This document shows positions 267 through 19,800 of a stretch of 44,156 bases of DNA, in pieces. The DNA comes from Desulforadius tongensis. GTDB taxonomy: Bacteria > Bacillota > Desulfotomaculia > Desulfotomaculales > Desulfohalotomaculaceae. Position 1 is the first letter of the stretch. The number at the start of each line of letters is the position of its first letter. The notes beneath the pieces were generated by a model. It saw only the letters and a list, made by a program, of their open reading frames with translations, searched no databases and was not told the DNA's origin. The stretch lies in NCBI RefSeq assembly GCF_016907915.1, contig NZ_JAFBCW010000021.1, positions 1 to 44,156 of the forward strand, read 5' to 3'. The translations under genes were made by a program, and so were the position numbers.

Positions 267-644
267 TTAACCTATAAAGTTCTTAACTTCGTCAATTAGT
301 AAACGAACAGATTCCTTAGCCGTTTAGGCCTGCTGAAAACTGAATACTTTAAAATCTAAGTAATCTGATTCATTTCTTAGTTTAAATAAGTTAGAAACTG
401 TTTTACTTGCATTTTTACTTATTTTACCCGTTTTAACAAAGTGCAGGTTAAAAAGAACAATTACACCACTATGCTTAGCAGAATCTAGTCCTTCTGTAGC
501 AAGTACCGCCCTCATTGCATGAAAAGTTGTATAATAGAACCTGTTAATCGCACCAGAATAATGTCCCAATAATAAAAGTTCTTCACCTTCCTTAAAGGTT
601 TCCCTTGCTTTGTTTAACCGCCACATTACCAAGTCTCGGTTCAT
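267..644 (-). pseudogene. HEPN-domain protein, interrupted by an in-frame stop
   Basis: HEPN-domain partner of the nucleotidyltransferase just upstream. Family signs are FHAMRAVL (about residues 40-47), KHSGVI and FVKTG, and the R-N-E-S-D-Y segment near residue 92, the position of the HEPN active-site motif; the classical R-x4-6-H is not present. The frame opens with ATG at 642-644, overlapping the MNT stop as ATGA. It hits TAA at 324-326 after residue 106. Reading straight on in frame gives 18 more sensible codons (TAKESVRLLIDEVKNFIG) to a second TAA at 267-269, so one change (GAA to TAA would suffice) has clipped the last helix. The shortened protein may still be made. Confidence 0.75.
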
Positions 645-976
645 AAAGGTAATCCTTCCTTTTGAATATTTTTATAAAAAAGAGTGTCTTGGAATGGAGG
701 GTAAGAATAGTCTTTTTCCGTAATTGTAGTAGCTGCAATAACAACATTATACTTTAAATTCATATCAACAGTTGTATCTAGGATTATTTCTTCTGTTGCT
801 GCATCTTCTTTTTTTAATATAACTAAAATATCAATGTCTGACTCCGAAGTTGCAGTTCCTTTAGCAACTGATCCAAACAAGCGAATTTCAATTATATTAT
901 CTTTCAATAAGGATTTAATTTTAGTGCAAAACTCATTAATTGCAGTGCTGATGTTATTATCTTCTAAGCCAACCAC
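641..976 (-). CDS. MNT-type nucleotidyltransferase (antitoxin)
   Basis: Minimal nucleotidyltransferase of 111 aa. The catalytic signature G-S-x3-G-x5-S-D-x-D-x-L is complete at about residues 35-52 (GSVAKGTATSESDIDILVIL). In HEPN/MNT modules of this kind the MNT protein neutralises the HEPN ribonuclease, in known cases by nucleotidylating it. The start is GTG at 974-976, behind a weak GGCGGTGAT site. Translation is probably coupled to the HEPN gene by the ATGA overlap at 641-644. The antitoxin is intact while its partner is truncated, as expected if the module is decaying without poisoning the host. Confidence 0.8.
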   Translation of the reverse strand: MVGLEDNNISTAINEFCTKIKSLLKDNIIEIRLFGSVAKGTATSESDIDILVILKKEDAATEEIILDTTVDMNLKYNVVIAATTITEKDYSYPPFQDTLFYKNIQKEGLPL

Positions 977-1166
977 ACTATCACCGCCTTCATTTTTCTA
1001 TTATATTCATAGGTAATCACTCCTAAGAACATTATAACCATTATGGAAACTATATTTCCAGCACTTTCGAGTACAAAATATTCCTATTCTTCGATAGTTA
1101 TTAACTATTTTCTAACCATTATATAACAACATGTTGACACTCTTTTTAAACATTCTATGAAAAAAA

Positions 1167-1565
1167 TCACTGAGGTATTTTGGCTTTAATAAGCACCTCG
1201 TTTTCACTAATTATTATCCGGCCTATTAAAAGGATCACCAAATGTTTCTTGTCCTCCTGATCCAGATCATCAATACAGCCAAGTACTTCTTGGGCCAAAT
1301 TTTTCAATTCTTCCACTCTTTGTTCCAGCTATTTTTGTGATACCTCTGATTTTTCTATCTCAGCCAGTCTGGTTTTCGCCGAATTAATTTTACCTTTTAT
1401 TTCTTTCATTACCTTTTCAAAGTCATCCATTTTTAATATACCGCGCCGAAAAGCAGTAAAAACACGCTCTTTTTCTTTGTTCAACGAGCCAATTTGTTTT
1501 TGTAAGTTTTTCTTTTCTCTTTCATCTGATTCCAGTTGCTTTTTACTATAAACATCCTGTATCAT
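1167..1565 (-). pseudogene. Large serine recombinase, C-terminal remnant
   Basis: The coiled-coil and C-terminal part of a large serine recombinase. The first segment has KEKERVFTAFRRGILKMDDFEKVMKEIKGKI, typical of the long helices after the zinc ribbon. A TAG at 1329-1331 interrupts it. The same frame continues for 53 codons (LEQRVEELKNLAQ, then LGCIDDLDQEDKKHLV and LLIGRIIISENEVLIKAKIPQ) to TGA at 1167-1169, matching the usual recombinase tail. The catalytic domain is gone: in-frame stops lie just above 1565, where unrelated sequence begins. It is a dead remnant of a phage- or ICE-type integrase. Confidence 0.7.
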
Positions 1566-2121
1566 GGCATCCGGATCTTACTTACATTATTCCTCTTATT
1601 GGCGCAATGACCGGACTTTTCAAAATATTTATATCAACACTTGGACTACTTGAAGTGGAAAAATTATTTATATCTAAAGAGAAAAAATAGCTGATAATAT
1701 TTTAGAGTATATTAAAGTAGTATTCTTCTTAGCAATATTTACATTAATACTATCCTATTTTCTTATAACGTATGACTCAATTTTCAACCTACTAGCTAAT
1801 TATGATTATTACTATGTCCCAAATACCATTGCAGGAACTTTATTTTCTCTATTAGTGTTACTGAATTTAATTTATACTTCAAGCCCTAAAAATCTCTTAA
1901 ATTGAAAAATAATAAATGGTATACTATGTGCAGAAGCTTTCAAAGAACAACCTTCTAATCTCGAGATTTTCTTTCTCTTTATTGCTTTAATTTTCATTTA
2001 TTTAGCTATATTCTTTTTTCCAAAGTTTATTCAAGGACTTATTATAAAGTTACCATTAAAACTAAGGATAACCATTGCTTTGAAGATTTGTATCTGTATA
2101 GCAATAATCACAAATATATAG
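1566..2121 (+). pseudogene. Decayed multi-span membrane protein
   Basis: Three hydrophobic segments read as one protein if two lesions are repaired. Segment one (about 1568-1690; TYIIPLIGAMTGLFKIF) ends at TAG 1688-1690 just after an A6 run. A one-base shift in that run leads into KIADNILEYIKVVFFLAIF, which stays open to TGA 1903-1905. The same frame then continues with LEIFFLFIALIFIYLAIFF to TAG 2119-2121. Four or five membrane helices can be seen. I do not recognise the family. It abuts the recombinase fragment at about 1566, so the left end is a rearrangement junction. Confidence 0.5.
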
Positions 2122-2162
2122 TACTTGGAAAAGAGCCCAAACATTTTTACTCAAGTCAATAT

Positions 2163-2507
2163 CTAAAGGTTCTCAAGTTCCAGCAGAGTCACTTTTTCAC
2201 CAATAATTGAGGTAACCCTACTCTGCCATATTGAAAACATTTCCCTTTGAGCGTTATTTAGTTTATTATCCATTTTCGGCCACGTCCTGGGCCGGTATTT
2301 CATATATATTTTAATTACATACCTCTTTGTGATTCCGTGTTTCACAGCCGCTTCTCTAGGTGAATACCCCCTACCTAACATCCGTAAAACATTTTTTCTA
2401 TTTTTTCAGTTATCTTAACTTTAGGTCTTGTTGCTGGGCGTCCTTTTCTGCTTGGTTTTAGTCCCGGGCGCGCCGGCGGGCCATCCCCTCCGCCCTGCGG
2501 CTGACGC
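2163..2507 (-). pseudogene. Small helix-turn-helix protein, frameshifted
   Basis: The open part (2163-2381, 72 aa) carries a helix-turn-helix-like stretch, GYSPREAAVKHGITKRYVIKIY. Upstream, in another frame, lies a basic lead-in GLKPSRKGRPATRPKVKITEKIEK. The two join as KIEK-NVLRMLGRG if one A is restored in the A6 run (forward T-run near 2393-2398), so the gene has probably lost one base. Resolvase/transposase-type DNA-binding proteins begin this way, but I cannot name the family. The coding signal runs out near 2507, where the next fragment begins on the other strand. Confidence 0.4.
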
Positions 2508-2529
2508 CTAAAATCAAAGCAATCTCAAT

Positions 2530-2976
2530 GTGTTTAAGCTTGATGCAGATTTTGATGTACTCATTGACAATAATTATATTCATATTTTAAGACCAGCAGC
2601 TTTTGAATTTGCAGGTCAGTTACAACAGGCAGTATTAGAAGCAGTACCAAAGAACATTGCGTCATTGCAAAAAGATCTTGACTTTGTAGATTTTAGCGAT
2701 ATTCAAACATACGCTGCCAATCATCCGCGTGCAGCCCGTTACCTAGCATCAATCCGTACGGCACAAGACACACGAAACATCAGTTATCAAAATTTGAAAG
2801 ATATTTGCCTGCGAACTGGAGTTGAAGTCTTCGAAAAAGATGGAAAGCTACATGTGCACAATCAACACATCATGGGATTTTTGGAAGTATTAGATCGCCG
2901 CCGCTATGAGCTGGAATTAATTAACGGAAAGCCTGAACAATTCCGAGCACCAAGTAGACAACGCATCAAAGAGTAA
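2530..2976 (+). pseudogene. DUF4868 (KwaB-like) C-terminal fragment
   Basis: 148 aa resembling the C-terminal half of DUF4868 proteins, the family of KwaB in the Kiwa anti-phage system: FKLDADFDVLIDNNYIHILRPAAFE at the start, then ARYLASIRT, and FLEVLDRRRYELELI near the end. Full KwaB proteins are roughly twice as long. There is no ribosome binding site before the GTG at 2530, and a TAA sits in frame at 2509-2511, so the N-terminal half is missing. No kwaA partner is identifiable beside it. The match is from memory of the family pattern. Confidence 0.5.
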
Positions 2977-3127
2977 TCGCTGGAAATTTCCCGTCTTTAG
3001 TTACGAAGAACAGGGATAATCCCACAATAAAATAAAAAATTAATTTTTCAGGGGAAGCTTGACATGAATTGCCATTGGAATTAGCAAAAACGTTGGTCAG
3101 ATAATAAAAATTCATGAGGTGTATAAC

Positions 3128-6100
3128 ATGCATAAAGAACTACCACACGTATTAGATTATTTCATTAGCTACGAAAATCAATGTCGTTACTATGAAAGTA
3201 ATTTAAAAAATCATACCGAAGGTTCTGATAAACCTCTTCGTTCTTTAAATGATATTACTAATCTTAAAGAATTTATTAAAAAAAAATCCATTGAAGTACT
3301 AGAAAAAGAAATTACTAACGTTTATAAGAAAACAAACAAAAGCAAGATAACTTTACAGCAAAAACAAAATATTATAGAAACACTTAATAATGTATTTATA
3401 TCTCAAGATATTAAAGCACTTAGACAATTATTAGATAAATTCAAAATACCCCAAGATGAACAGGATAAAGTTGTTAAATTATCAACCGAATTATTACTAT
3501 TAAGTAAATGTATTATCTGTTATCCAATAATCGAGAATAATAAAGGTAAATCTAAGATTATCAAAATACCAATTGTAACTTTTCACTGCGAAATCAACAA
3601 TAATGATATTATTGTTAAGAAATATATTGTTAATTATAGTGCATTAAAAGTTATTATTGCTTGGATGCTGAACGTTGAATCTGTATCCTTAGAGCAAATA
3701 TATGGTGAGAAACTAAAATCATTTTATATAACACTTAATTCTTTTCAAAATCAGTCAATCACAGAAATTATAAATTTAATTGAAGACAGTATAAATAAAG
3801 AGTTTTCCCTTGGTAACAATATTTGTCATAAATTTAGCAAGTATGAAAATTGGGTAAAAACCGAAAATATATTTGTGACAATTGATGAGTTAAAAGAAAT
3901 TTATGAACCTATTTTTAAAGAAGAAATCCATTCAATTAAACGTTACTTTTATAGAGAAAATACCATTCCACCTTTACTAAGTAGGTATTTAGGTTATACA
4001 CATAATCCAAAGGAATTTAAACCAAATAAGTTAAAACCTTATTTTCATACTGGAAGTTATACAAACAAATATCCTGTCAACTTTAAACAATGGTGTGTTA
4101 TTAGTACAGTTAATAATTCCGAGTTAATAGCTGTAAGTGGTCCCCCAGGTACAGGCAAAACAACACTTCTTAAAGAGATTATAGCTAACGAAATAACGGA
4201 AAAAGCTCGCCTTATTTATAAATGCTGGGATAAGTCTTGGAAAAATAAAAAAGTTCAAGGCCGTGATATTTATATTTCTCCATTAGGAGGGCAAAATCAT
4301 TATTCTATAGTACTTACAAGTACCAATAATACAGCTATTGATAATATCGGTGAGGAAATTTCTAAAGAGATTGATTTTTGTAAAACTTTTATTAACAATG
4401 ATAAATTTAATGGCACTTTTTGTGCTCGTATGGGTAAATCTGATAATTTTGAGCAGTTTCGAGTATTATATAAAGAACTAATCAAAGGTTTAGAGTGTAC
4501 GGAATATGATCCAAATGAAGCACAGCAAGTTTATAAAAATTTTGAAGAATTAAACTTAAAACTATCTGAAATAAAAGAAAAATTTGATTCTTTGTATCAA
4601 GATAGAACTATTATATTAAGCAAAACAAAAGCTCTAAGCAATAAATATAGTATTCATACAACTGTACCCGAAAAAATATTAGAAAAATTAAATCAAATGC
4701 TTCTTATTATTACTAATGAAATAAAACAACTTTCTGAAACTGTACAAAATGAACAAAAAAATGTAGAGACATACGAAGAAGAAATTAACAACCTTAGAAA
4801 ATTATTGAGTAATAATAAAGTAATGATTGAAAATTTTAAAAAATTTCTTCAACGTGAAGAAGAAAACCTAAAAACGCTTTATTTAGCATATGAAAAGCTC
4901 CGTAGATTAAATAAATGGGGACCTTTACGGTTATTGTTTTTATCTTGGTGGAAACTTTCATCCAGGTATCCAAGTATGCGTTATATTGAGGATGTTATTC
5001 AAGAATCTAAGAAAAAAAAAGATCTTTTATATAATAAAATTATTACACAAACAGAATACCATTCTTCCATAAATAAGGAATTGCAACAAAATTATACTTT
5101 CTTTGAAAAATCTAAAGAAAAATTAAATAAATACCAACAACAAGAAACGGAAAAAAAAGAACATAAAAAGAGACTGCAAAAAGATATTATGGAGTTAACT
5201 AATTTAATAGTTACTTACAAAGAAAAATTAAAAAATTATACTAGTAAGGTTAAAGTAAAAATCGAAGAAAATTACAATCCTTGGGGTATAAATTGGTATT
5301 CATTGGCTAACACAAAAATTATATTTAATCTACGGTATGATTTATTTAAAGCTGCTATTAGGTTGATTGAACAATTTATCTTGCTTAATAAAAAATACAT
5401 TATTACCAATTTAAAAGAAATTATCCAAAATAAAAATAAAGAAAATGGATGGTTTAATGCTTTATATAATTCCGAAGAAAATTACAATAAAACTACTAAA
5501 TTAAAAATACTTGCATTATGGGAAACTTTGTTTTTATGTTTCCCAGTAGTAACCTGTACCCTTCATTCTTTTAAAAAAAATTATAGTAATTTCAAACAGC
5601 TAATACCTAATATGTTTGATCTTTTGCTTGTAGATGAAGCTGGGCAAATTATGCCCCATTATTTGTGCGGTCCCATGTTTAGAGGGCGTAAAGCAGTAGT
5701 TGTTGGGGATATTTTTCAAATCGAGCCAATTAGACCTCTTCAAAAAGATTTACTGGAAGAATTTAATGATATTGATCCTGTTCGTAAAAACAATATCTGC
5801 CTCTTATCAAAATCTGCACAAGATTATGTTAATGCAAGTTCAAATTTTGGAGAAAAACTTAATTCCAAATATATGGGAATAATATTACAAGAACATAGAC
5901 GTTGTGAACCAAATATTATGACCTACAGTAACGAACATGTTTATGCAAATAATTTAATAATCTGCACAAAAGATGACCATAATAAGCCATTTGGTAGTAA
6001 TTTAGTTGCAATTGATGTTCGTGGAAAAAAATATCCTTATAGTCATTATAATCAATATGAATTAGATGTATGTTCACGTATTGTTTCTTACATATCTAAA

Positions 6101-7108
6101 CATAAAAACGGTTTTGGTAGCAATATTGCAGCTATTACTCCATTTCGCAAACATTCTGAAAAACTAGGAAAGCAAGCTGGAATAAAATCTGGTACTGTTC
6201 ACCGCTTTCAGGGCCAAGAATGTGATTGTATAATTTTTTCCACGGTATTTGATTCAGTGGAAAAACAAGGTACTTTAGTTAATTTTATTGGCAGCTTGCC
6301 AAATATGCTAAATGTTGCTCTATCCCGGGCTAAAAAACAATTTATTTTAGTTGGTAATTTAGAAGAAATAGCCAATTCAAATAATGAACTAAGTAAAGTA
6401 TACAATATTATCCGTAAAAAAGGTAAAGTCTTTAGTTTATATAGCCCTGAAGCAAATAGTTTATCAGATGAAGATATGGAATTATTATGCTCGTTATTAA
6501 AAGATGAGCTTAAAGACAGCACTGACACTATCGGTAAATACTTGGAAACCAATTTTCCAAAAGGTGTTGTATTATCACCAGAAAATCATAACAAATTAAT
6601 AAAATTTGTACTTTGCCACTTTGAAAAATCATTATTTATTTCTTCACCATGGATTACAAGTGATGTCGTTAATACACATTTTTTAAAACAGTTAGCAATA
6701 AAAGCAAATGAAAATCTTGATATACAAATTCATTTTGGGTATAACAAATTGCCAAATTATAAACAAGGTGATTTAACTGATAGTTTATTTTTACAAAAAT
6801 TACTAAAAAGAGATTATCCATCTCCATATAGGGATAAAGCTTCCAAGGCTATTTTACAACTTTATAAAATTCTAAAATCAAAACTTATATACAATGCTCC
6901 AAATCATGCAAAAATACTTATAATAGATGGAAAATATGCAATAGTTGGATCACACAACTGGTTATCTAACCCAGGTCGAGCTTCACGAAAAGAAGTTAGT
7001 TTCATAAATTGTCGTCCCGATTCTATTTCATACCTTTTACAAAAATTCACCAAACGTGCCAAAGCCCCCGGGGATATAAGGCGCACCGGGCAAAGCCCCG
7101 TGATGTAA
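3128..7108 (+). CDS. SF1 helicase-PLD nuclease, Mokosh type II (MkoC)-like
   Basis: About 1326 aa with two enzymatic parts. The SF1 (Upf1/DNA2-type, COG1112-like) helicase has Walker A SGPPGTGKTTLL near residue 338, Walker B LLLVDEAGQ near 833, then QEHRRCEPN, GTVHRFQGQECDCIIFS (near 1023) and NVALSRAKKQFILVGN. A long Lys/Glu-rich coiled coil (about 450-760) is inserted between motifs I and II. The C-terminal phospholipase-D-like domain has one HKD motif, HAKILIIDGKYAIVGSHN (near 1260). This layout matches single-gene Mokosh type II defence proteins, thought to act on phage nucleic acid. ATG 3128 is chosen because GAGGTG lies 5 bases upstream. The last about 15 residues come from IS sequence, so the native stop is lost. 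Confidence 0.75.
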   Translation: MHKELPHVLDYFISYENQCRYYESNLKNHTEGSDKPLRSLNDITNLKEFIKKKSIEVLEKEITNVYKKTNKSKITLQQKQNIIETLNNVFISQDIKALRQLLDKFKIPQDEQDKVVKLSTELLLLSKCIICYPIIENNKGKSKIIKIPIVTFHCEINNNDIIVKKYIVNYSALKVIIAWMLNVESVSLEQIYGEKLKSFYITLNSFQNQSITEIINLIEDSINKEFSLGNNICHKFSKYENWVKTENIFVTIDELKEIYEPIFKEEIHSIKRYFYRENTIPPLLSRYLGYTHNPKEFKPNKLKPYFHTGSYTNKYPVNFKQWCVISTVNNSELIAVSGPPGTGKTTLLKEIIANEITEKARLIYKCWDKSWKNKKVQGRDIYISPLGGQNHYSIVLTSTNNTAIDNIGEEISKEIDFCKTFINNDKFNGTFCARMGKSDNFEQFRVLYKELIKGLECTEYDPNEAQQVYKNFEELNLKLSEIKEKFDSLYQDRTIILSKTKALSNKYSIHTTVPEKILEKLNQMLLIITNEIKQLSETVQNEQKNVETYEEEINNLRKLLSNNKVMIENFKKFLQREEENLKTLYLAYEKLRRLNKWGPLRLLFLSWWKLSSRYPSMRYIEDVIQESKKKKDLLYNKIITQTEYHSSINKELQQNYTFFEKSKEKLNKYQQQETEKKEHKKRLQKDIMELTNLIVTYKEKLKNYTSKVKVKIEENYNPWGINWYSLANTKIIFNLRYDLFKAAIRLIEQFILLNKKYIITNLKEIIQNKNKENGWFNALYNSEENYNKTTKLKILALWETLFLCFPVVTCTLHSFKKNYSNFKQLIPNMFDLLLVDEAGQIMPHYLCGPMFRGRKAVVVGDIFQIEPIRPLQKDLLEEFNDIDPVRKNNICLLSKSAQDYVNASSNFGEKLNSKYMGIILQEHRRCEPNIMTYSNEHVYANNLIICTKDDHNKPFGSNLVAIDVRGKKYPYSHYNQYELDVCSRIVSYISKHKNGFGSNIAAITPFRKHSEKLGKQAGIKSGTVHRFQGQECDCIIFSTVFDSVEKQGTLVNFIGSLPNMLNVALSRAKKQFILVGNLEEIANSNNELSKVYNIIRKKGKVFSLYSPEANSLSDEDMELLCSLLKDELKDSTDTIGKYLETNFPKGVVLSPENHNKLIKFVLCHFEKSLFISSPWITSDVVNTHFLKQLAIKANENLDIQIHFGYNKLPNYKQGDLTDSLFLQKLLKRDYPSPYRDKASKAILQLYKILKSKLIYNAPNHAKILIIDGKYAIVGSHNWLSNPGRASRKEVSFINCRPDSISYLLQKFTKRAKAPGDIRRTGQSPVM

Positions 7109-7255: not shown

Positions 7256-7354
7256 CTTACCTTTCAAGAATATTATGCTCAGCAACCAAATTATAGTCAT
7301 ATGCATCTTGTGAAATATATAAGTTTCATTTCAAAACTAAGGAGTGACTTGTTC

Positions 7355-8452
7355 GTGGTAGCTAAAAAATTTGATGTTTTGTGGAAACTGGAGGAACATA
7401 CTAAAGCCAAGCACGATATACTTGTACAGTACATGAAGGCATGGTTACCCATTATGTCAAGAATATCAAATCAAATTTTATATATTGATGCCTTTGCCGG
7501 CCCTGGCGAGTATTTGAATGGCGAACCAGGTTCTCCAGTTCACTTTCTTGAAACCATAAAGCATCATAATGCCAATTTAAATTGTCAAATTAATTGCTTA
7601 TTTATTGAAAAGGATCCAAAAAAGCATCACCACTTACAGTCTATAACCTCTAGATATAATGATCTACCTAATGTAAAAATTAGAACAGTCTGCGGATCTT
7701 GTGGTGATATAATAACTAAGGTGTTAAAAAATTTTGAAAACCGCAACAAATCGATGCCAACGTTTGCTTTTCTTGACCCGTTTAGTTATGTAGAACCCAC
7801 AATGGATATGGTTAAAAGAATAATGAAATTTCCAAAGTGTGAAGTATTGATTAACTTTATGTATGAGGAAGCTAACAGATTTTTAAAAGTTGATCATCAA
7901 GCAAAATATTATGATTCCGTCTTTGGAACTAGTGAATGGAGGAATATATGCAAAATATCTGATAGTAAAATCAGGAAACAGCAATTACACGACTTATATT
8001 TAAACCAGTTAAAAAATCTAGCTAATATAAATTATGTGCGATCTTTTGAAATGAAGAATAAAAAGAACACAACTAAATATTATCTTTTCTTTGGTACTAA
8101 CAGTTATTCTGGATTAAAAAAGATGAAAGAAGCTATGTGGAAAGTTGATCCCTTAAGTGGATACACTTATTCAGATTATACTGATAAAAACCAATTAACA
8201 CTATTTAAGCCTGAACCTGATTATTACCAATTAAAAAGACAACTAGTTGATAATTTTAAAGGCAAAACTGTACCAATTGAGAAAATAGAAAATTTTATTG
8301 TAGTCAACACGCCATTTAGAGAAACCCATTTTAAAAAGCCTATACTTAGAGAAATGGAAAAAAGTAATCCTCCTGAAATACAGGTCTTTACTAAAAATAA
8401 AAAAAGAAGGCCTGGGCAATATCCTCGCGGAACAATAATTAAGTTTATTTAA
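7355..8452 (+). CDS. tcmP: Three-Cys-motif partner protein, TcmP-like
   Basis: 365 aa from GTG 7355, chosen because AAGGAG lies at 7339-7344; the frame is open further back but without a better site. It resembles TcmP, a family defined by its habit of lying next to radical-SAM-like three-Cys-motif proteins. Visible signs are KLEEHTKAKHDILVQYMKAWLP, a methyltransferase-type loop ILYIDAFAGPG (about residues 47-57), LFIEKDP, and AFLDPFSYVEP. The C-terminus looks like a winged helix (KKRRPGQYPRGTIIKFI). The D-x-F-A-G-P-G loop suggests S-adenosylmethionine binding; no substrate is known. Its TAA is directly followed by the stop of the opposing radical SAM gene, which fits the family definition. 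Confidence 0.75.
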   Translation: MVAKKFDVLWKLEEHTKAKHDILVQYMKAWLPIMSRISNQILYIDAFAGPGEYLNGEPGSPVHFLETIKHHNANLNCQINCLFIEKDPKKHHHLQSITSRYNDLPNVKIRTVCGSCGDIITKVLKNFENRNKSMPTFAFLDPFSYVEPTMDMVKRIMKFPKCEVLINFMYEEANRFLKVDHQAKYYDSVFGTSEWRNICKISDSKIRKQQLHDLYLNQLKNLANINYVRSFEMKNKKNTTKYYLFFGTNSYSGLKKMKEAMWKVDPLSGYTYSDYTDKNQLTLFKPEPDYYQLKRQLVDNFKGKTVPIEKIENFIVVNTPFRETHFKKPILREMEKSNPPEIQVFTKNKKRRPGQYPRGTIIKFI

Positions 8453-9670
8453 CTATATACAATTACAGCCCTTGAAAGGTATCTGTAATCTATTACACAT
8501 TCTATACTCTTCTTTACAAGGAGCCACCATTAGTGGTTCTTTATTTTTTTTTCTAATTAGATTAATTATTTTTTTATATACTTTAGCCCGACTTTCAAAC
8601 TCTGTACGGCAGCGCCCCCCCCCGCCCATTTCTCTGGTTGCGTTTAAAAAGTATTCACCTGCTTTAGGATGACGTTTTTTAATAAACTGCAGCAGCATTG
8701 GATAAAAACGCAGTTGACCCAAAGTTATAACTTCTGGCTCAACCATATCAAATAAATAATCTATTAATTCTGAGTACTCTTCTTCCCAATTATCACTATA
8801 TGTAATAATTGGGTCTATTCGACATCTTATTCTATACCCTTTAGCTTTAGCCCTAGCAAGAGCATCAATTCTGGAATATGGATCCGCTGTTCTATCTTCA
8901 AAAACTGCAGCATTAATTGGAGTTGTTAAGCTGGCTGAAATAATCACCTTGTTATTTTTAATATCTGGTAAATGATTAACATTTGTCCCTTTACTAACCA
9001 GTAATAAGCTAACATTACACGTATTAGATATTTTGTCTATCACTTCTTCTACTGATTTAACAATAGGGTCAACAGCTAGAGAATCAGATAATTCTCCAGA
9101 GTTTAATAAAACAGGCTTTCCAATTTTATCTATACTATCTATTTCTTTAAATAATGATTCTAAATTCAAGTACTGTCTTACATAGGGGGTCATTCTAAAA
9201 GTAAGCTGTAAAAAACAATAAGAACAATTAAATGGACATCCAGTTCCCAATACAACTTTATAAAATTTATGACAAGCTAATCCTTTTGGTGGAGTAAAGG
9301 TATCAATAAATTTGCTACGTCTTTCCCCTAGATACAAAATTTTCTTGCCAGCATCTAACTTGTCTACCAATGAAGGATTCTTACCGTAAAAGTAATCTTT
9401 TAAAATTATTGAAGAATCATTTATCCTATCTTTTGAAAATTTACAATCAAAATTAATATCTTTAAGCGAAGAAATATTTCCAATACCAGCCTTTTCTTCT
9501 AAATTATGGTATAAAAATAAAACCTTATTAAAAATTCCTCGCATATTATTAAGTGCATTAATAACTCGTTGATATGACTTCTCATTTAAAAGCAAGCCGC
9601 TATCTACAACTACTGTTGTTAAATTTCCCCAAGGTTCATCTGCTTTATCCAAGCTTTTGACAACTGCCAT
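8453..9670 (-). CDS. SPL-like radical SAM protein (three-Cys motif)
   Basis: 405 aa. The iron-sulfur and SAM motif is GTGCPFNCSYCFLQ near residue 145 (C-x3-C-x2-C, as in spore photoproduct lyase-type enzymes). Downstream are SGELSDSLA, ISASLTTP, RIDPI and LGQLRFYP, all placed as in the SPL-family barrel. The tail is rich in cysteine (APCKEEYRMC, then GCNCI) and may hold a second metal site. The start at 9668-9670 follows AGGAGA at a good distance. Converging with tcmP at zero spacing, it is the likely three-Cys partner. SPL itself repairs thymine dimers; here the substrate is unknown and could be nucleic acid. Confidence 0.75.
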   Translation of the reverse strand: MAVVKSLDKADEPWGNLTTVVVDSGLLLNEKSYQRVINALNNMRGIFNKVLFLYHNLEEKAGIGNISSLKDINFDCKFSKDRINDSSIILKDYFYGKNPSLVDKLDAGKKILYLGERRSKFIDTFTPPKGLACHKFYKVVLGTGCPFNCSYCFLQLTFRMTPYVRQYLNLESLFKEIDSIDKIGKPVLLNSGELSDSLAVDPIVKSVEEVIDKISNTCNVSLLLVSKGTNVNHLPDIKNNKVIISASLTTPINAAVFEDRTADPYSRIDALARAKAKGYRIRCRIDPIITYSDNWEEEYSELIDYLFDMVEPEVITLGQLRFYPMLLQFIKKRHPKAGEYFLNATREMGGGGRCRTEFESRAKVYKKIINLIRKKNKEPLMVAPCKEEYRMCNRLQIPFKGCNCI

Positions 9671-9795: not shown

Positions 9796-10038
9796 GAAAC
9801 TGTTTGGACAATGCCTGCATGGAAAACTTCTTCAGCCATTTCAAGGCAGAACGTTTCAATCTGTACTCTTTCTGCACAGCCGAAGAGGTGAAGGATGCGG
9901 TACACAAATATATTTGTTTTTATAACCACCAACGCTTCCAAAAGAAATTGAACAACCTGAGTCCTTATGAATATAGGACTCAGGTTGCTTAACTGTGCTT
10001 TTTTATTCCTGTCTGCTTGACAGGGGTCACTTCAGATC
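9796..10038 (+). pseudogene. IS3-family (IS150-type) orfB tail and element end
   Basis: The reading frame from about 9797 to 9992 gives NCLDNACMENFFSHFKAE and YICFYNHQRFQKKLNNLSPYEYRTQVA, the universal C-terminus of IS3-family orfB transposases with the last catalytic Glu (ENFFSHFKAE). A stop lies just before it, and the rest of the transposase is absent. The sequence that follows (TGTCTGCTTGACAGGGGTCACTTCAG) looks like the terminal inverted repeat. Only the right end of the element survives. Confidence 0.75.
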
Positions 10039-10130
10039 ATTTCTTCCAAGGGGGGTATGTGTAAGAATTTTTAAATATTTTTATTGATGCAGCAGGAATA
10101 TTTAGAAATTTATTGAAATGAATACATAAT

Positions 10131-10216
10131 AAAAATTGATAGCAATTTGGAGAAAAGGAGACGGCTTATAGTAGAATATTCCCCAGGGAATATAACTTAT
10201 AGGCCGTTATTTTTTA
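10131..10216 (+). ncRNA. Candidate structured RNA element, copy A
   Basis: A leader TTGAT (10136-10140), 8 bases, then GGAGAAAAGGAGA (10149-10161) running straight into a hairpin: ACGGCTTATA (10161-10170) pairs with TATAGGCCGT (10198-10207) with G-U wobbles, and inner pairing continues towards GAATATTCC. A U-run follows at 10210-10215. The same order of parts recurs 134 bases downstream. It could be a terminator-linked regulatory RNA; I match it to no known riboswitch. Confidence 0.4.
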
Positions 10217-10263
10217 ACCGGTGAAATAGAAAGCTTTTTATTTTTGGATACAAAATACATCAT

Positions 10264-10338
10264 AAAACTTGATGTCTGGTTAGGAGAAACGGAGATAACC
10301 ACGGTGAGGTAGATTATAAGAACTGCCTATTGGGGTTA
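10264..10338 (+). ncRNA. Candidate structured RNA element, copy B
   Basis: Leader TTGAT (10269-10273), 9 bases, then GGAGAAACGGAGA (10283-10295; 12 of 13 identical to copy A). AGATAACC (about 10293-10300) pairs with GGTTATCT, with an inner AGGTAG/CTGCCT stem, and TTTGTTTTTG follows. The stems differ in sequence from copy A while the leader is kept, as for homologous RNA elements with compensatory change. It lies 120 bases ahead of the chemoreceptor start. Confidence 0.4.
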
Positions 10339-10461
10339 TCTTTGTTTTTGTTTACAATTCGGCCGGGTACTGTTCCAGAACAGCAGGGTAACGAGTCTAC
10401 ACTAAATTATACCGGATGTGACGTAGATTTACTGTAAATTTGCTATGGAGGTGGTTGATAA

Positions 10462-12174
10462 ATGCTGGGGCTGAAAACGAAACCTGTATGGAACGGGCGG
10501 GCAGCTTCAAAGAGTATAGAACAGTACAATCCTTTACCCCTGGCGGAAAAATTGAGTTTTGACGCCCATCAGATTAACTGGACGGTGCAGGAAAACGCAG
10601 AGGCTGCGAAAAGTTTGGTAAAAAATGTTGAAAAAAACACCCGGGAACTGATGGATGGCTCGGCAGGACTCCAGGAACTGACAGGTTTGGCCAGGGAGCT
10701 GGAAGAACGGGCACGGCGGGTATCCGATGTGTGCTCGTCTAGACTTCCCCAGGCTCAAAGGGGCAAAGAAACAATGAATGAGGCAAAAGCCAGCCTGGCG
10801 CAGATTGCAGAAGATGTGATGGCTTATGCTGACTCAGCCGTTAAATTAAGGGAATTATCTGAATATATTTCTGATTTTGTCAATGAAGTGAGAGACATTG
10901 CCCGTCAAACCAACCTGCTGGCGCTGAATGCAGCCATTGAGGCGGCCCGGGCCGGGTTGGCCGGTAAAGGGTTTTCTGTTGTAGCGGAAGAGGTGCGTAA
11001 GCTGGCGGATAAGAGCGCCCTTTCTGCGCAAAGGATTCAGAAAACGGCAGAGGACATTACAAAGGGCATTAATAGCGTGGCTTCGGGGGCGGAAGAGAGT
11101 TCCAAACAATTAAATGCTGTGGAAAAAAATGTTCGGGCAGGTGTAGATATCCTCACTGCCATTGTTTCTACCTTTGAGGAAATTACCGGTTTGAATGAGG
11201 AGTTGTTTCAATCCACGGCCCAGCAGGCAGAAACAACAGAAAAGCTGGCGGATATTTTTTCTTCTCTCACCGGTGGTATGCAGGAAATTGTAGGTTTGGT
11301 TGAAGATCAAGAAAGGCATCATCAGTACCTGCTGACATTGGCCAATCAACTGAGTACTAACATTTATACTCTGCAGAAACAGTCGGCCTTCTTTAAACAG
11401 CCGGATGAACTCATATTTGGCATTAATCCTGCTTTAAGTCCGGAAAATATCCGCCGCCTTTACCTGCCGGTTATCACTGCCCTCTGTACCACCATCGGCT
11501 GCCGGCCCCGGGTACTGATAGCGGCGGATTACAATGCTTTAGCCGACAGTCTGATTGACGGTATTGTGGATGTGGGCTGGTTTTCACCGCTGGCTTATGT
11601 TAACGCTTCTGCCAAGGAAAAGATAATTCCCTTGGCTACCCCTGTTGTTAATGGTGCAGCTTCTTATAAAGGGTATATTATTACCACCGGTGACACCGGC
11701 ATCACTTCGCTGCCGGAACTGAAGGGCAAGCGTATGGCCTTTGTTGATCCCAAGTCGGCATCAGGTTATGCCTACCCGCGTTTGATGCTGCGCCGGGCCG
11801 GTTTGGATCCGGACAGTGATCTTGGAGAGAGCATATTCTTGGGAACCCACAGCCGGGTCATTGATGCTGTATTATCCGGTGCGGTAGCTGCAGGGGCAAC
11901 ATACTCCGAAGCCATTGAGGATGCCAAGCAGCGCGGTTTGGATGTTGACAGGTTGATTTACCTGGCAGAAACAGAACCCATACCCAAAGATTGTATTGCA
12001 GCCCGCCCGGGGTTGGAATCTAAAATAATTAGCAAACTGCAGCGAGGTCTGCTGAATTTATCCAACACTAAGGCCGGGCAAGAGGCTTTAGCAAGCTCGT
12101 CCATTGAAGGTTTTATCCCGGCACAGGATGAAAGTTACAACATCGTGCGGGAAATAGTCCGGCAAGCAGATTAA
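10462..12174 (+). CDS. Soluble chemoreceptor fused to PhnD-like binding domain
   Basis: 570 aa without signal peptide or membrane helix. Residues about 50-310 form a methyl-accepting chemotaxis signalling coiled coil with the hairpin tip [40 protein letters not shown], where CheA and CheW would dock. Residues about 315-570 resemble a PhnD-type (phosphonate/phosphate ABC) substrate-binding protein: [76 protein letters not shown]. Such domains normally sit outside the membrane; here it would be cytoplasmic, sensing an internal ligand such as a phosphonate or other anion. GGAGGTGG precedes the ATG by 8 bases. A terminator follows, so it is a single-gene unit behind two RNA elements. Confidence 0.85.
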
Positions 12175-12179
12175 TAATC

Positions 12180-12207
12180 AAGGCACCCGTTCTGCTGGGT
12201 GCCTTTA
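12180..12207 (+). terminator. Terminator after the chemoreceptor gene
   Basis: AAGGCACCC (12180-12188) pairs perfectly with GGGTGCCTT (12197-12205). It lies between the convergent chemoreceptor and ATPase genes and may serve both strands. Confidence 0.8.
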
Positions 12208-12221
12208 TCAACCAATGGTGC

Positions 12222-13343
12222 TTACTTGAACTCTTCAGCATACTTTAATATTCTTTGTAAAATTTCATCCCGTTTGGCGTTAATGGCATCAAAATCCATG
12301 GCCGGGATGTAGTATTTTTCCATTGCATCGTGTTCTTCTTTAGCGGCGGCGATGCAGCCCAGTGCCCGGCAGATGGCTGAGTGCAGCCTTTCACTGCAGC
12401 ACTTGATTTCTTTTGCGTAAACTGCCAGAATGTTTTGGTTTATGAATTTGTCTAAGTTGAACATTTTAATCTTTTTAATATTTGTCACTTCTTGGGGCTT
12501 AAAGTTTATACCGGGAACATCTTTAAGCACTGCAGTGTTCATGGCAGGGATGACCACCAGGTCCACCTTTTCCGGTTCCATAGCACAATGGTACACTTCG
12601 GTGTCTAATCCATGCATGTGTATGGCGTCAGCTACTGTTTCTACGATGTAGGAACCGGCAGCACTGGCTGCACCGGTGATGAAGTACAATTTTTCAACAT
12701 CCTGCAGGATAGTGTCCAGGTGGTGGTCCTGTCCTTTAGGAGTAAAGGCGGTGGCAAACAGGTGGCGGTCTTTAGGCTTGCGATCAAATTGAATTTCTGC
12801 TTTGCTAATAATAGATTTGGCAATTTCATGAATAATGCCGTTTACCTGGGCGTAGTTGATGGCTTCATCATAGTAGCTGTCCAGCTCATCCTTTATAATT
12901 TTAGCTTCTGCCAGCTGACTGTAAGCTGTTTTAAACAATCTGCCCACCCTGGCATTGGAGGCTAACACCTCTTTCTTTGATTCGCGTAATTTGGGCTCAT
13001 TCCAGTAATCTCCTAAATGAATAATTTCGTCTACCACACCGGGATTTTTAGGATCTACTATGTGCGGTGCCGTTCCATCCAGCATGGCTACTTTTATGGT
13101 CGGAATCATAATTCCATCTAAAGAGTTATTATCGGAGGAACAGCAGTGAAATTCCACGTCGTAACCCCGTTCCAGCATTTGTTCGCCGATCCAGCGCATT
13201 AGTGTTGATTTGCCTACCCCCGGGCCCCCTTTGATTACCAAAATGCGGGTAGCGTCCGGTTCAATAATATAGTCATAGTAAGAATAGAAGCCGCTGCAGG
13301 TGTTACCGCCGGGAAATACCTTTTTTAATTTGCCTTTGCCCAC
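12222..13343 (-). CDS. P-loop ATPase of the PRK06851 type
   Basis: 373 aa from GTG 13341-13343, behind AAAGGAGG; the longer frame upstream runs through a hairpin and is not used. Walker A is LVIKGGPGVGKSTLMRWIGE near residue 40. A second nucleotide-binding-like loop, YFITGAASAAGSYIVETVADA, occurs near 245, giving the two-domain layout of this conserved Firmicute family. The DNA- or sporulation-related role sometimes assumed for it is not established. Cysteines occur in FHCCSSDN and KCCSERL. It converges with the chemoreceptor gene, and nothing shows the two work together. Confidence 0.7.
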   Translation of the reverse strand: MGKGKLKKVFPGGNTCSGFYSYYDYIIEPDATRILVIKGGPGVGKSTLMRWIGEQMLERGYDVEFHCCSSDNNSLDGIMIPTIKVAMLDGTAPHIVDPKNPGVVDEIIHLGDYWNEPKLRESKKEVLASNARVGRLFKTAYSQLAEAKIIKDELDSYYDEAINYAQVNGIIHEIAKSIISKAEIQFDRKPKDRHLFATAFTPKGQDHHLDTILQDVEKLYFITGAASAAGSYIVETVADAIHMHGLDTEVYHCAMEPEKVDLVVIPAMNTAVLKDVPGINFKPQEVTNIKKIKMFNLDKFINQNILAVYAKEIKCCSERLHSAICRALGCIAAAKEEHDAMEKYYIPAMDFDAINAKRDEILQRILKYAEEFK

Positions 13344-13493
13344 AACCAAACCTCCTTTGGTAAAGTTTGTACTGAGAAAAAATAACCACCGGGCAGGTGG
13401 GACCTGCCCTTGGTGGCGCATTTAATCTGTTTTAATTTATACATCTTGAAACAGCGGTATATGACAGGTTATTAGTGTTAATTTGTGGCCGGT

Positions 13494-13977
13494 TTAACAA
13501 ATTTCCACTTTATACTCCCTCAGCCAGGTGTCAATTTGGCACAGGTAGGCAAACAGCTGGGGCCCGGTCATCAGTTGGCCGAACCATGGCCGTTTAAAAG
13601 TGTCTCCTTCTACCCGGGTGAGGGAACGGAGGGCATTGGCGTTAACCAGCGGCAGCAGCGGGGATGCTGGGTCTTCCAGAATACGTATTAACTAACCAAT
13701 TGCGCACCGCAGCCAGGTAATGGGGGTTGTGTGTTTTGGGGTAGGGGCTTTTGCGACGATTTAGTATGCCCTCGGGCAGTACACCGGCCAGTGCTCTGCG
13801 CAGGATACCCTTTTCCTGCCCATTCCAGTTTTTCATCTGCCAGGGTATGTTCCACACGTATTCTACCAACCGGTGGTCGCAGAATGGCACCCGTACTTCC
13901 AGGCCGGTGGTCGTGCTCATGCGGTCCTTACAGTCCAACAGTGTGGTCATAAACCACAGCATGTTAAGGTAAAACAT
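13494..13977 (-). pseudogene. asnB: Asparagine synthetase (asnB) C-terminal remnant
   Basis: The tail of glutamine-hydrolysing asparagine synthetase: LWFMTTLLDCKDRMS, GLEVRVPFCDHRLVEYVW, EKGILRRAL and RKSPYPKTHNPHYL are family hallmarks of the synthetase domain. The first frame goes out of register near 13690 and stops at 13642. The shifted frame gives RILEDPASPLLPLVNANALR and PWFGQLMTGPQLFAYL, ending at TAA 13494-13496. Everything upstream of the synthetase C-terminal region is gone; an unrelated gene begins at 13995 on the other strand. It is a deleted and frameshifted pseudogene. Confidence 0.8.
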
Positions 13978-19478: not shown

Positions 19479-19502
19479 AATTAACAATCATCACCAGAAA
19501 AC

Positions 19503-19588
19503 AATGCTTCCCTACGTTGGCATTACCCAAACAGGTTCAAAGGGTTAGGACACAGTCCCTCTCAGCCCCCAAGGGCACCCCCAGCATT
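19503..19588 (-). promoter_or_regulatory. TPP riboswitch controlling thiSGHFE
   Basis: On the minus strand: AATGCT (P1), GGGGTGCCC, GGCTGAGAGGG, ACCCTTTGAACCTG, GGGTAATGCC, CGTAGGGAAGCATT (P1 close). These are the conserved THI-box segments in order. The P1 strand AGCATT can instead pair with the terminator arm, giving transcription attenuation when TPP is bound. Confidence 0.95.
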
Positions 19589-19697
19589 ACTATTCATTTT
19601 TTATAAGTATACCTCTTATAACTATATATTGTAAAGTGCAGAAGGAAACCACCCCATGTCATCGAATATAAATTAATCATATAACTGAAAAAGTATC

Positions 19698-19787
19698 GTT
19701 TTAGCTGGGGGAGCTTAAAAAGCTGAGAGGGATTATTCCCGACCCTTTGAACCTGATCAGGTTAACACCTGCGTAGGGAAGCTAAAC
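19698..19787 (+). promoter_or_regulatory. TPP riboswitch controlling thiD
   Basis: GTTTTAGCT (P1, 19698-19706), GGGGGAGC, AGCTGAGAGGG, GACCCTTTGAACCTGAT, CACCTGCGTAGGGAAGC and the closing AGCTAAAC (19780-19787) make a complete aptamer. AGCTAAACAG (19780-19789) is perfectly complementary to CTGTTTAGCT (19807-19816) in the terminator, so ligand binding frees the terminator. Confidence 0.95.
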
Positions 19788-19800
19788 AGCGTGGTTTGAT

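Follow-up and report, generated by a model that had tools for sequence, protein, structure and literature searches.

The window analysed here is the whole stretch of 44,156 nucleotides from Desulforadius tongensis (contig NZ_JAFBCW010000021.1), in which a long gene for a protein with helicase and PLD nuclease domains (the helicase-PLD protein) stands among defence-type genes:

324-644, minus strand: HEPN (PADLOC, Pfam)
641-976, minus strand: MNT nucleotidyltransferase (PADLOC, Pfam)
2530-2976, plus strand: C-terminal half of KwaB, 5'-truncated (profile residues 154-299 of 300)
3128-7108, plus strand: helicase-PLD protein (1326 aa from ATG 3128; 1329 aa from GTG 3119)
7301-8452, plus strand: TcmP (three-Cys-motif partner; PDC-M30A), well above cut-off

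The helicase-PLD protein is encoded by a single open reading frame on the plus strand (3128-7108, stop codon 7106-7108) without internal stops. The mechanically called start is GTG 3119 (1329 codons), but ATG 3128, the start chosen in the original prediction, is likelier because GAGGTGT lies just 5' of it. The neighbourhood agrees with the defence-like island previously described around the gene, with MNT/HEPN, a KwaB fragment and TcmP (7301-8452). No intact KwaA was found 5' of the KwaB fragment, and since KwaB is broken, the island may be decaying.

Several other elements were noted in the window: (i) at 186-240, a long and almost perfect inverted repeat that ends in runs of A and T and resembles a terminator; (ii) broken frames with hydrophobic stretches at 1556-2118, perhaps remnants of membrane proteins, without a PADLOC match; (iii) a radical SAM protein akin to spore photoproduct lyase, far below the family cut-off, at 8453-9670 (minus strand), convergent with TcmP; (iv) an IS integrase fragment (rve_2) at 9804-9992 (plus strand), beyond the defence-type genes on their right-hand side; and (v) two TPP riboswitches on opposite strands, at 19492-19592 (minus) and 19697-19796 (plus), with about 100 bases between them.

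Domains and predicted structure of the helicase-PLD protein

Pfam, AF2 and Foldseek all agreed with the proposal that one chain of about 1.3 kaa holds an SF1 COG1112-like helicase, an inserted coiled coil and a C-terminal single-HKD domain, arranged on the plus strand as follows (motif and domain residue numbers count from GTG 3119):

3128-4045, plus strand: N-terminal domain, ~residues 4-309; helical at first, followed by a beta sheet; conserved among the five family members described below
4046-4540, plus strand: first part of RecA-like domain 1, with Walker A, motif Ia and an insertion of ~25 residues between them (Pfam, segment profile scans)
4541-5446, plus strand: coiled-coil insertion within RecA domain 1, ~300 residues (long helices in the AF2 model)
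5447-6445, plus strand: motif II onward and RecA-like domain 2, motifs II to VI (Pfam, segment scans, Foldseek)
6533-7054, plus strand: C-terminal single-HKD PLD nuclease domain (Pfam, segment scans, Foldseek)
7055-7108, plus strand: non-homologous C-terminal tail, ~17 residues, in GC-rich single-copy DNA

Pfam placed AAA_11 at residues 327-560, AAA_12 at 919-1081, PLDc_2 at 1174-1310 and PLDc at 1262-1281, all above their cut-offs. The helicase motifs are Walker A (GPPGTGKTT, 341-349), motif Ia (STNN, 401-404), motif II (DEAGQ, 839-843), GDIFQ (863-867), EHRRC (925-929), GTVHRFQGQE (1025-1034) and SRAK (1069-1072), and the HKD motif is HAKILIIDGKYAIVGSHNW (1263-1281). Motifs I and II, the later helicase motifs and HKD, which the original prediction had considered intact, are thus all present and kept in relatives, the catalytic positions being invariant or nearly so in the alignment. 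We classify the helicase as a predicted COG1112/Upf1-type SF1 enzyme with intact ATPase motifs. The AF2 model of residues 300-1329, computed from 26 sequences, had a mean pLDDT of 80 and displayed two very long helices within the insertion; Foldseek matched its helicase part to Upf1, Dna2, Sen1 and Ighmbp2 and its C-terminal part to the single-HKD nucleases Nuc, NucT and Zucchini. The N-terminal domain (~residues 4-309) was modelled with modest confidence (pLDDT 65), and the PDB gave no match for it.

Alignment of the helicase-PLD protein with its relatives extends to residue 1305-1312; the final ~17 residues differ. The altered tail remarked on earlier is therefore present, but small. Its DNA, from 7055 on, is richer in GC and single-copy in the genome; it matched neither plasmids nor Rfam, and within the order a single genome contained a partial match, of 43 bases. 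As these residues lie beyond the complete PLD fold, the change probably does not stop the predicted activity. We regard it as improbable that the gene is decaying and no longer functional, with its C-terminus run into foreign DNA and its neighbours truncated: the altered tail, a KwaB lacking its first half and the broken hydrophobic frames at 1556-2118 point that way, whereas 1326 uninterrupted codons, the full set of intact helicase and HKD motifs and a PLD fold completed ahead of the tail point the other.

The match to the MkoC profile

Mokosh type II is defined by a COG1112 helicase on the N side and a PLD nuclease on the C side in one gene (PMC11672841), a layout that the helicase-PLD protein fits. 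Its best PADLOC model was MkoC, at 480 bits (E 5.8e-144) over protein residues 22-1311 and profile positions 9-1133 of 1136, and a Mokosh type II label is what PADLOC would probably give. The label is weakened by the range of scores in the same scan, where true MkoC proteins reached 1025-1685 bits (E. coli 1685, Vibrio 1414, Rhizobium 1202, a human-gut contig protein 1025) and PLD-less helicases 197-1032 bits (1032 for one of the MkoC clade; 267, 230 and 197 for COG1112 helicases outside it); E. coli MkoC thus scores more than three times as high as the helicase-PLD protein. When segments were scanned separately, the two helicase parts scored 90 and 262 bits against MkoC, and the PLD domain 63 bits against MkoC and 60 against MkoB, while residues 1-309 (against the PADLOC models) and the coiled-coil insertion, each scanned alone, gave no MkoC match. 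Comparison with MkoC by hhalign assigned the N-terminus a probability of 0.5 and part of the insertion one of 73. In profile comparisons the PLD domain matched that of MkoC at 99%, and each helicase segment was slightly nearer to the PLD-less group than to MkoC.

The long coiled-coil insertion had been counted as part of the Mokosh type II layout; a long insertion at that place proved general among the COG1112 helicases compared and is therefore no pointer to it. As for the contrary outcome named in the original prediction, placement in another helicase-PLD family unlike MkoC, the result lies halfway: no other named family claims the protein, and its helicase halves do resemble MkoC. The assignment to Mokosh type II thus stands as regards layout and best PADLOC model, but membership in MkoC is not supported by the score, the N-terminus and coiled coil, or the bootstrap trees and insertion described below.

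A match to the MkoC profile alone does little to identify Mokosh type II, since PLD-less COG1112 helicases match it at E-values of 1e-58 and far lower. L007, L020, L010 and other such helicases match the PADLOC model strongly, and the model alone may over-call the type. Among genomes of the Bacillus cereus group, PADLOC-type searches have been reported to call Mokosh in 93.8%, mostly type II, with all but one of these calls undetected by DefenseFinder (PMC11811056). Over-calling may bear on that figure.

A small and patchily distributed family

At the cut-offs used, neither 100 genomes of the order nor 398 genomes of the phylum yielded a close relative, and peptide-pattern scans from the single sequence found none either. 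An alignment-based scan of genome contigs recovered three full-length relatives, in Paenibacillus sp. JJ-223, P. xylanexedens and Scopulibacillus daqui, with 32-34% identity across residues 11-1312 and 477-593 bits to the MkoC model (three scored). A scan with the PLD domain recovered a fourth (L131, 1280 aa, positions 747-4589 of IMG/VR contig IMGVR_UViG_2711768659_000001), bringing the known family to five members including the window protein. The L131 contig also has a Zot-like gene and a rolling-circle Rep (Rep_trans) gene, as in filamentous phages, which suggests that this relative is carried by or beside a filamentous-phage-like element. No neighbour is conserved over the window and the other four loci (L022, L023, L024, L131); neighbours differ between them. 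At L022, a 1361-aa protein (9860-13945) with weak similarity to STAND ATPases and LmuA lies 50 bases 3' of the Paenibacillus relative.

This distribution bears on whether the protein could be a housekeeping or repair helicase-nuclease, performing Dna2-like end processing and situated near defence remnants by chance. The nearest helicases of solved structure include Dna2 and Upf1 and the neighbours are partly broken, as such a role would allow, but occurrence is patchy (among 100 related genomes only its own has the gene, and the two other genomes of the genus lack it), one relative lies beside filamentous-phage-like genes and neighbours vary by locus; we consider a housekeeping role very improbable.

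Phylogeny of the helicase core

In a quick tree the family grouped with PLD-less helicases at a support of 93, yet a tree holding it with MkoC had slightly higher likelihood in the AU test, and because the two disagreed, careful trees with outgroups were built from two aligned helicase-core blocks. Nine proteins lacking motif matches were left out of the earliest tree, and some of them, including two MkoC-type proteins, were added later. The family formed a clade (100/99), and MkoC-type proteins with and without PLD formed a separate one (100/100 in both trees). The family joined PLD-less COG1112 helicases outside the MkoC clade, with support of 99/92 for four members and 96/90 for five; AU tests did not reject holding it with MkoC (p 0.065 and 0.128). 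Some helicases of the MkoC clade lack a PLD domain, and gain and loss of the domain are therefore indistinguishable in these trees, although we tentatively favour an independent fusion; the flanks of those PLD-less loci, short in several cases, contained no separate PLD gene.

The spacing between Walker A and motif Ia, a criterion of our own that is unpublished and was noticed on reading the sequences rather than preset, was 55-56 residues in the five family members and 49-64 in 67 PLD-less helicases. In 21/21 proteins of the MkoC clade it was 30-31, while deep branches and outgroups had 22-35. An insertion of ~25 residues after Walker A is thus common to the family and the PLD-less helicases and absent from the MkoC clade.

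These results are relevant to the view that the protein is a divergent but true MkoC, descended with it from one ancestral helicase-PLD fusion, the family being a fast-evolving branch. The best PADLOC model across nearly the entire chain, the comparable scores of three relatives, the same domain order, the AU tests and the 99% PLD comparison are in its favour; a position with PLD-less helicases at 96-99 bootstrap, an insertion missing from all 21 MkoC-clade proteins compared, an N-terminus unlike that of MkoC and helicase segments slightly nearer to the PLD-less group weigh against it. We judge such descent rather unlikely, though less so than decay or a housekeeping role.

The PLD domain is related to those of Mokosh

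In all five members the best match of the PLD domain outside the family was MkoB of one genome (G141), ahead of twelve MkoC domains, and when the family PLD profile was searched in 249 genomes of the phylum, the only other match was this same MkoB, which stands beside MkoA. The window's own genome gave no MkoA match at 1e-80 and no MkoB match at 1e-10. The comparison included a single MkoB, which lies closer to the best MkoC domains than the helicase-PLD family does to either; the closest matches therefore indicate a Mokosh-type PLD domain, not descent from MkoB.

Interpretation and proposed mechanism

Taken together, our results make it reasonably probable that the helicase-PLD protein is a one-protein, Mokosh-like anti-phage (or anti-mobile-element) nuclease, belonging to a small family, mainly of Bacillota, that stands apart from MkoC. 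In favour of this reading are the domains and motifs, the fold, the relatives, their own clade, the spacing, the Mokosh-type PLD, the defence-type surroundings and the patchy occurrence; against it are the AU values (p 0.065 and 0.128), a family of five members, the broken KwaB and the lack of a conserved partner or neighbour, which leaves the link to defence with a weak genomic context. A defence role is predicted for the family as likely. More tentatively, the family may stem from a COG1112 helicase that became fused to a Mokosh-type PLD domain a second time and independently, giving a third Mokosh-like architecture convergent with MkoC, whose motor, as part of the same tentative reading, would come from a helicase group normally without a nuclease domain.

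Upf1-type helicases move on single strands driven by ATP, and the active site of HKD nucleases is built from two HKD motifs. In the mechanism we propose, the Upf1-like motor would load on a single strand, either phage RNA or exposed DNA, and then travel along it, powered by ATP; two helicase-PLD chains would pair, as a single HKD is half a PLD active site, and the PLD dimer would cut the engaged strand, with the N-terminal domain setting specificity or holding the enzyme off. By analogy, the target would be phage nucleic acid, Mokosh being reported to degrade viral transcripts (PMC11291487). If the family does stem from a fusion of its own, helicase and PLD were joined more than once in evolution, which would mark the coupling of motor and nuclease itself as the useful invention, and the family would offer a natural control for what MkoC needs to work.

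Comparison with known systems

Upf1, Dna2, Sen1 and Ighmbp2 on the one hand and Nuc, NucT and Zucchini on the other have folds like the two enzymatic parts of the helicase-PLD protein, but they are not so fused together and have 13-20% sequence identity to it. The PLD-less COG1112 helicases (for example L007, L025, L035 and L089), for which no family name was found, share with the family the Walker A-Ia insertion and an element where the coiled-coil insertion ends, but have different N-termini and no PLD domain. Mokosh type I (MkoA/MkoB) also combines a COG1112-type helicase with a PLD domain, but uses two genes and includes a kinase domain, whereas both enzymatic parts are in one chain here. 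MkoC (E. coli WP_024216601.1) has the same one-chain order, a COG1112-type helicase followed by a C-terminal single-HKD PLD, and a related PLD domain, sequence identity being 26% over the stretch that runs from the second half of the helicase to the end of the PLD and 22% over part of the first half; the helicase-PLD protein is distinguished from it by the insertion of ~25 residues after Walker A, another N-terminal region and another coiled coil.
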